A stretch of 47,756 nt of DNA from Zetaproteobacteria bacterium CG1_02_53_45 (GTDB lineage Bacteria > Pseudomonadota > Zetaproteobacteria > Mariprofundales > Mariprofundaceae). This document shows positions 906 to 47,432 of the stretch, in pieces (the stretch's first letter is position 1; every line of letters begins with the position of its first letter). Where the stretch lies: positions 1-47,756 of the forward strand of contig MNWZ01000086.1 in NCBI GenBank assembly GCA_001871925.1, written 5' to 3'. The translations under genes and the position numbers were made by a program. The notes below the pieces were generated by a model, which saw only the letters and a list, made by a program, of their open reading frames with translations, did no database searches and was not told where the DNA came from.

Positions 906-980
<75 letters not shown>

Positions 981-33368: not shown

Positions 33369-33439
33369 GCCGGCACGCTAGCCGCTCTTCTCCTTTGCCG
33401 AAAGCAGCGCTTATAGTTAGTTTGTCCAGTCAGGGAGGT

Positions 33440-33586
33440 ACTGATTTATTGGCCTGCTGCCAAAAATCAGTGCGAAAAGGCAAAGGTGCGAACTTAGCTT
33501 TTCTCACAAAATCAATGGTTTGCGCCATCGGTTCTGGTGCCCCTGACATGGGTCGCGCGGAAACACTGAATAATTCAGCGTTTTCC
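33440..33586 (+). ncRNA. Candidate five-hairpin structured element, copy B (5' of rpiA)
   Basis: Hairpins 33440-33471, 33474-33503, 33510-33533, 33537-33556, 33564-33580; same order, spacing and compensatory changes as 47258-47396. Confidence 0.55.
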
Positions 33587-33608
33587 TAGTTTTATATGGA
33601 GGGAATGA

Positions 33609-45817: not shown

Positions 45818-47251
45818 GTGAGTGACGCAGTCCAAAAGGTCTTTGACCTGATTCAAGAAAATGAGTGCGAGTTTGTTGACGTTCGTTTCACCGATACGCG
45901 CGGCAAATGGCAGCACGTAACTTATCCAATCCATCAATTGAGCGAAGATTCTTTCGAAGACGGCTTTGCCTTCGATGGCTCATCTGTAGCCGGCTGGTGT
46001 GATATTAACAATTCAGACATGGCTCTGATTCCTGATCCTGCAAGTGCAAATATCGATCCGTTTTTCGAAGCCTCCACACTGGTGCTGGTTGCTCAGGTGA
46101 TCGATCCGATTACCGGTCAGGATTACAACCGCTGCCCGCGTCAGGTTGCCCAGCGCGCACTGAACTACATCCGTTCAGCCGGCATTGCCGATACCGCATA
46201 CTTCGGTCCTGAACTGGAATTCTTCATTTTTGACGGTATTACCTGGAATAATGAAATGGGCAGCTGCGGTTACCAGATTGAATCCGAAGAGGCTGCATGG
46301 AACTCCGGCAAGAACTTTGCTGATGCTTCCGAAGGCATGATGCGCAACTCAGGTCATCGTCCACGCGTGAAGGGTGGTTACTTCCCGGTTCCGCCAATCG
46401 ACTCCCTGCATGAAATCCGCAGCGACATGTCGCTGGTACTGACCGATCTGGGTATTCATGTGGAAGCCCATCACCACGAAGTGGCAACTGCCGGTCAGTG
46501 CGAGCTGGCGATGAAATTCGCCGAGTTGATCCAGAAGGCTGATGAAGTGCAGTGGTACAAGTATGTGATCCACAACGTGGCGCATGCTCACGGCAAAACC
46601 GCCACCTTCATGCCTAAACCGATCTACGGTGACAACGGTACTGCGATGCATGTGCACCAGTCGCTGTGGCTCAAGGGCAAGAATCTGTTTGCAGGTAACA
46701 AATACGCCAACCTGTCACAGGAAGCGCTGTGGTACATCGGTGGTATCATCAAGCATGCCAAGGCATTGAATGCGATTACCAATGCTTCGACCAACTCGTA
46801 TAAACGTCTGGTTCCGGGCTTCGAAGCGCCGGTCATGCTGGCTTACTCAAACCGTAACCGCTCTGCATCCATCCGTATTCCTGTTGTGAACTCTGATCCG
46901 GCTCGCCGTATCGAAGTGCGCTTCCCGGACTGCACTGCTAACCCGTACCTCGCATTCACCGCGATGATGCTGGCTGGTCTTGACGGCATTGCTAACAAGA
47001 TGGATCCGGGCGAAGCTGCGGACAAGAATCTGTACGACCTGCCACCGGAAGAGGGTAAGTTGATTCCTACTGTTTGTGGTTCTCTGGAAGAGGCTCTGAA
47101 CGCACTGAGTGCGGATCGTGACTTCCTGAAAGTCGGTGGCGTCATGGACGATGATATGATCGATGCTTATATCGAGCTGAAGATGGAAGAGCTTAATGAA
47201 GTTCGTATGCGTCCGCATCCGAAGGAATTCGAACTCTACTACTCGTGCTAA
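45818..47251 (+). CDS. glnA: Glutamine synthetase type I
   Basis: [31 protein letters not shown], adenylylation-type [10 protein letters not shown]. Confidence 0.98.
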
Positions 47252-47257
47252 GATGCT

Positions 47258-47396
47258 CTGAATAACTTCGTCTTGAAGTTATTCAGTACGCAAAGGCAAA
47301 AGCGTGGTTTTTCCTTTGCTCACAATATCAAGCACTTACAGTGCGTGATATTGGCGGGACATTCATGTCCCGCAGGATTCTCTGAATTTTTCAGAG
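47258..47396 (+). ncRNA. Candidate five-hairpin structured element, copy A (3' of glnA)
   Basis: Hairpins 47258-47286, 47290-47319, 47324-47352, 47354-47373, 47380-47396; see copy B at 33440-33586. Confidence 0.55.
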
Positions 47397-47432
47397 TATC
47401 TCTAACTGTTAGCTGAACAGAAATCAGAAAAA

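Follow-up and report, generated by a model that had tools for sequence, protein, structure and literature searches.

The window, a stretch of 47,756 nucleotides from Zetaproteobacteria bacterium CG1_02_53_45, contains two homologous five-hairpin elements, one upstream of rpiA (copy A) and one directly downstream of glnA (copy B). Both are, with a probability of about 0.93, copies of a non-autonomous IS5-family MITE of Mariprofundaceae. New here is a family of IS5-type MITEs whose interior is an unusual, modular hairpin array.

Two copies in the window

A first-pass annotation had reported five-hairpin elements with the same hairpin order at both places. This was confirmed by end-to-end alignment of 33434-33585 with 47251-47401, and the bounds were set at 33434-33585 for copy A and 47251/47252-47401 for copy B. 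The two copies share a mean column identity of 75%, so the low linear identity claimed earlier was overstated. The identities of rpiA and glnA were confirmed by NCBIfam models, and copy A stops 23 nt short of the rpiA start. No further full copy was found in the window by the covariance-model search. The window also carries two tandem tRNA-Met genes (768-842 and 906-980, minus strand). The features of the two copies are as follows.

33430-33433, left flank of copy A, TCAG, an eroded target duplication forming an imperfect pair with the right CTAG
33434-33585, plus strand, MITE copy A, five-hairpin, upstream of rpiA (covariance-model match 131 bits, E 1.5e-34)
33434-33450, plus strand, left terminal inverted repeat of copy A, GGAGGTACTGATTTATT, IS-A type (2 mismatches against the IS-A end GGAGATGCTGATTTATT)
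33440-33471, plus strand, HP1 of copy A (sequence and fold; 11 of 11 consensus pairs)
33474-33503, plus strand, HP2 of copy A (the outer 6 bp are intact and the inner stem is disrupted; 3 consensus pairs are lost and 7 remain)
33510-33522, plus strand, predicted IHF site AATCAATGGTTTG (consensus WATCAANNNNTTR) in the middle of copy A, where it overlaps HP3
33537-33556, plus strand, HP4 of copy A (covariance-model match, consensus pairs)
33559-33585, plus strand, HP5 of copy A, terminal hairpin holding the right terminal inverted repeat (covariance-model match)
33569-33585, minus strand, right terminal inverted repeat of copy A (2-4 mismatches against the consensus ends)
33586-33589, right flank of copy A, CTAG, a YTAR target
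47248-47251, left target duplication of copy B, CTAA, with the TAA serving as the glnA stop codon (congeners have the empty site TGCTAA)
47252-47401, plus strand, MITE copy B, directly 3' of the glnA stop codon (152.9 bits, E 1.5e-40; model match from 47251)
47258-47286, plus strand, HP1 of copy B (fold)
47290-47319, plus strand, HP2 of copy B (fold)
47323-47353, plus strand, HP3 of copy B (fold)
47326-47338, plus strand, predicted IHF site TATCAAGCACTTA at the centre of copy B
47354-47373, plus strand, HP4 of copy B (fold)
47375-47401, plus strand, HP5 of copy B, terminal hairpin with the right terminal inverted repeat (fold, covariance-model match)
47402-47405, right target duplication of copy B, CTAA
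47427-47457, plus strand, native glnA intrinsic terminator, outside the element, moved about 150 bp downstream by the insertion

Copy B folds into a near-perfect row of five hairpins (-64.4 kcal/mol, z -10.3), exactly as had been drawn for 47258-47396. For copy A, the earlier drawing stood in part: its hairpins are homologous and alignable, but HP2-HP4 as drawn are absent from the minimum-energy fold (z -3.3). Copy A is eroded, with 5 of 44 consensus pairs broken. That this copy, taken alone, folds just moderately better than shuffles would fit chance hairpins in two intergenic regions. This explanation can practically be dismissed, as it is refuted by the homologous copies found genome-wide, 24 of them near full length at E<1e-20 and with common ends and target sites.

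Family size and distribution

A covariance model was built from 18 copies of the host genome, a 2.44-Mb draft in 171 contigs. The search for further copies in this genome and its relatives was successful. In the host, matches at E<=0.01 numbered 72, the 24 near-full copies included; fragments (dozens) or composites account for many of them. The element is present in 20 of 41 sampled Mariprofundaceae genomes and in 10 of 14 genera. In the named scan, matches were confined to Zetaproteobacteria, namely Mariprofundus erugo P3, Mariprofundus sp. KV, and Mariprofundaceae and uncultured Zetaproteobacteria assemblies; M. erugo has 71 matches. One genome of the same phylum but outside the order (G041) has 14 matches, which suggests horizontal spread. 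No DNA similar to the element was present in the plasmid collection searched, and the literature library searched yielded nothing on MITEs or repeats in Mariprofundus or Zetaproteobacteria.

Ends, target sites and probable IS5 partners

The element is about 150 bp long, which is too short to encode a transposase, and has terminal inverted repeats of about 17 bp. The ends are of two types, GGAGATGCTGATTTATT and GGATACTCTGAAAAACT; a degenerate end pattern matched the genome 54 times, compared with 0 for the reversed control. The same ends are found on two transposase-bearing elements of the host genome, IS-A and IS-B. IS-A is multi-copy and breaks contigs; IS-B (C125:23402-24545, 1144 bp) is flanked by CTAG on both sides and has a broken gene. 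Intact relatives in two other genomes (G004 and G020) encode proteins of 316 and 317 aa that pass the NCBIfam IS5 model, and the transposases score 266, 324 and 337 bits against a cut-off of 140. The IS in G004 lies at about L279:172-1327, and a deleted MITE adjoins its right end. As for REP/BIME, GTAG-tagged palindromes that go with a Y1 (RAYT) transposase, the ends of the element match DDE-type IS5 elements instead. The MITE interior has no match to the interior of IS-A or IS-B, which shows that internal deletion of these ISs would not by itself give the MITE. A PF01609 search recovered mostly other multi-copy ISs at contig ends, and the partner IS was not among them. In most copy-rich congeners, such as M. 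erugo, no IS5-group transposase was found at E<=1e-10, perhaps because the IS was lost or collapsed during assembly. Three IS-A copies (L080, L084 and L073) are interrupted at one shared internal position by an element with the end AGGGCAATCGCATTAAAA, apparently the multi-copy DDE_Tnp_1 IS seen at contig ends (L068).

Across 102 copies, the flanking 4-mers have the consensus YTAR on both sides, and perfect 4-bp target duplications were present in 50 copies, compared with a shuffled mean of 16.3 and maximum of 29 (2000 shuffles). The duplicated CTAA of the glnA copy includes the glnA stop TAA. The corresponding empty site was found after glnA in 17 congeners, where CTAA is conserved; in congeners the glnA intrinsic terminator lies directly 3' of glnA. 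In one further congener (G017, L168), an independent 27-bp end-to-end palindrome, GGAAGTGCTGATTCAATCAGCATCTCC, is inserted in the same CTAA, which is duplicated. Upstream of rpiA, about ten congeners are without any element, and those present in G019, G020 and G017 are eroded or of another kind. The imperfect TCAG/CTAG flanks of copy A are a point against the MITE reading, as are the missing IS5-group transposases of most copy-rich congeners, the unmatched interior and the lack of the IHF consensus in the autonomous ISs. A one-hairpin version of about 44 bp was seen at one host locus (L075).

Central IHF consensus

IHF is a DNA-bending protein. Midway along the element, the conserved linker TCACAA(A/T)ATCAA continues into a perfect match to the IHF consensus WATCAANNNNTTR. 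Among 102 copies, 46 have this consensus perfectly and 82 with at most one mismatch, compared with a shuffled mean of 0.7. The whole window contains only two matches, at 33510 and 47326, one in each copy. The host genome has an IHF-beta gene scoring above the NCBIfam cut-off, and the consensus is absent from the autonomous ISs checked. The consensus used is that cited in PMC5896051.

These features suggest how the element may move. An IS5 transposase supplied in trans would recognise the element ends, and IHF bound at the predicted central site would bend the short element and bring its two ends together. Cutting and joining at YTAR would then give the 4-bp duplication. Since YTAR contains TAA or TAG, an insertion at a stop codon would rebuild the stop and be harmless. 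The hairpins would serve the element while it is mobile or as DNA, rather than regulate rpiA or glnA; we infer that lineages still spreading preserve them and that they erode afterwards.

Gene context

For the gene-context statistics, each locus was taken with flanks of 1.5 kb and ORFs were called by a simple procedure. Copies are almost all intergenic, lying beside many unrelated genes and in either orientation: 28 are sense, 16 antisense, 26 between convergent and 26 between divergent genes, and 3 lie inside a simple ORF call. An in-frame stop codon is abutted by 31 of 102 copies (30%), compared with 141 of 912 flank YTAR sites (P = 4e-4). The TAA or TAG within YTAR helps to explain this abutment, and part of the enrichment reflects gene avoidance because the control YTAR sites include coding ones.

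This context bears on the reading of the first-pass annotation, in which the element is a new structured RNA family acting in sense as a cis-regulatory leader of rpiA. Its stable folds, the significant covariation inside the structure and the position of copy A, 23 nt before rpiA, speak for such a leader. The element is, however, not conserved upstream of orthologous rpiA genes, and in about ten congeners the ribosome-binding site is present but the element is not. It adjoins many unrelated genes in either orientation, and this dispersion is explained by the hallmarks of a mobile element. The Rfam search gave no match for copy A; near copy B it gave only terminator matches below the gathering threshold, mostly covering the glnA terminator. 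The stems also show no excess of G-U mismatches (see below). We therefore consider a sense-acting rpiA leader very unlikely. What refutes the RNA-family claim is mobile-element evidence that the first-pass annotation had not considered, namely the terminal inverted repeats, the YTAR duplications, the empty sites and the transposase-bearing elements with the same ends.

Once inserted, the hairpins might instead serve host transcripts at the RNA level, whichever way they point, as RNase III or decay insulators of the kind proposed for Neisseria NEMIS. This would fit the intergenic position of nearly all copies, many of them directly 3' of a stop codon, and the glnA copy lying between stop and terminator. 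Part of the stop abutment follows from the YTAR target, however; divergent (26), convergent (26) and codirectional (44) sites are all used, and sense-oriented copies lack any wobble signal for the sense strand. Such insulators thus seem improbable, if less so than the rpiA leader.

Covariation of the hairpins

The earlier claim that structure is kept with covariation holds across more than 100 copies, though two sequences alone could not show covariation. In the alignment of 110 copies (A3), 92.4% of pair cells were standard, compared with 80.1% after shuffling and 29-44% in slid pairings. Double changes were found in 36 of 44 pairs, and 597 cells were changed on both sides, compared with 200 in the shuffled alignment. 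Covariation was then assessed against a tree-aware null written for this analysis in the manner of R-scape (threshold E<0.05). With 102 copies, seven column pairs were significant, and all seven lie inside the structure (HP1, HP2, HP4 and HP5), which bears out the covariation reported by the first-pass annotation.

The mismatches in the stems comprised 126 G-U and 163 A-C cells, with 66 G-U and 84 A-C among single changes on terminal branches and 20 G-U and 46 A-C in copies in transcribed sense orientation. The absence of a G-U excess over A-C argues against selection on a sense-strand RNA. Counted as events in the stems of A3, A-C slightly exceeded G-U (111 versus 78, P = 0.02); this surplus is possibly a minus-strand or mutational effect.

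The main rival for the covariation part is mutational: template switching during replication would repeatedly use one arm of a hairpin to rewrite the other, with no selection on structure, and this mechanism is able to yield the same double changes (PMC8794818). As an explanation it is limited to the hairpins and does not conflict with the MITE reading. The 118 one-step double changes inferred between Watson-Crick pairs, 32 of them clustered within 2 nt, agree with it, as do the lack of a G-U excess and an inverted HP4 loop in two copies (L184 and L244). Partly against it, inverted loops are otherwise very rare, with 0 clear cases in HP1-HP3, and conservation of the linker and of the HP4 loop equals or exceeds that of the stems. 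In addition, the ratio of kept to broken pairs was 73:228 on terminal branches but 45:60 on internal branches (P = 4e-4), and relatively rarer broken pairs on internal branches are what purifying selection in active lineages would give. Our reading is that lineages which continue to spread preserve the structure, and that it decays once a copy has inserted. Even so, template switching is quite possible as the source of the stem covariation, at somewhat less than even odds.

Longer variants of the MITE hold extra hairpin cassettes. One three-hairpin cassette of about 70 nt separates HP3 from HP4 in the host; in M. erugo it is found in the opposite orientation within HP2. Composites with inserted cassettes were seen in M. 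erugo (L206, 1655-1873; L210, 1817-2034) and in the host (L013, 206-425; L023; L086). Tentatively, the interior may be a modular hairpin array that is selected, together with the central IHF bend, as single-stranded or cruciform DNA (or as RNA of either strand) during transposition. If so, R-scape-type covariation would arise without a functional RNA, and cassettes would behave as modules that are gained, inverted and lost.

Relation to known elements

The closest described relative is MITEPsy1 of Pseudomonas syringae, which was shown to transpose in vivo (PMC3189936). According to the available text of its description, it too is non-autonomous, has the ends of the IS5-type ISPsy2, GGAAGGTCTGAAAAAGCC and GTATCCTCTGAAAAAGCC, close to the IS-B-type end GGATACTCTGAAAAACT here, and gives a 4-nt duplication of CTAG or YTAA. 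It differs in its length of 100 nt and its host, Pseudomonas rather than Zetaproteobacteria, and neither a five-hairpin interior nor an IHF site is part of that text (PMC3189936). The 155-bp type of Correia/NEMIS of Neisseria is likewise an intergenic MITE of about 150 bp with an internal IHF site and a strong foldback, but has 24-bp terminal inverted repeats with TA termini and a TA-type target instead of a 4-bp YTAR duplication, and its foldback pairs end to end instead of forming a row of five hairpins (PMC2229807). Its internal IHF site has a counterpart here, at consensus level, in the predicted site. QMITE1 of Coxiella burnetii is multi-copy, with the conserved IHF consensus WATCAANNNNTTR and a stable foldback, but is a single long palindrome of about 400 bp with other duplications (PMC5896051). 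The CIR repeats of Caulobacter and Brucella are intergenic and have separate hairpin arms, a linker and a conserved protein-recognition motif; they differ from the element here in having two arms, a GANTC methylase motif and no terminal inverted repeat, and their mobility is unproven (PMC2229807).

The family provides a worked case of significant covariation, usually read as proof of a functional RNA, inside a mobile DNA element, and a large natural set of covarying hairpins for separating selection from template-switch correction. It places predicted IHF-type bend sites near many genes of iron-oxidising Zetaproteobacteria, and its YTAR target shows how an element can land on stop codons without harm.

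Elements also insert beside one another. In G004, a MITE, TTAG, the IS, TTAA and a deleted MITE lie in a row (L279, 20-1411), and in M. erugo three elements stand in tandem (L210).
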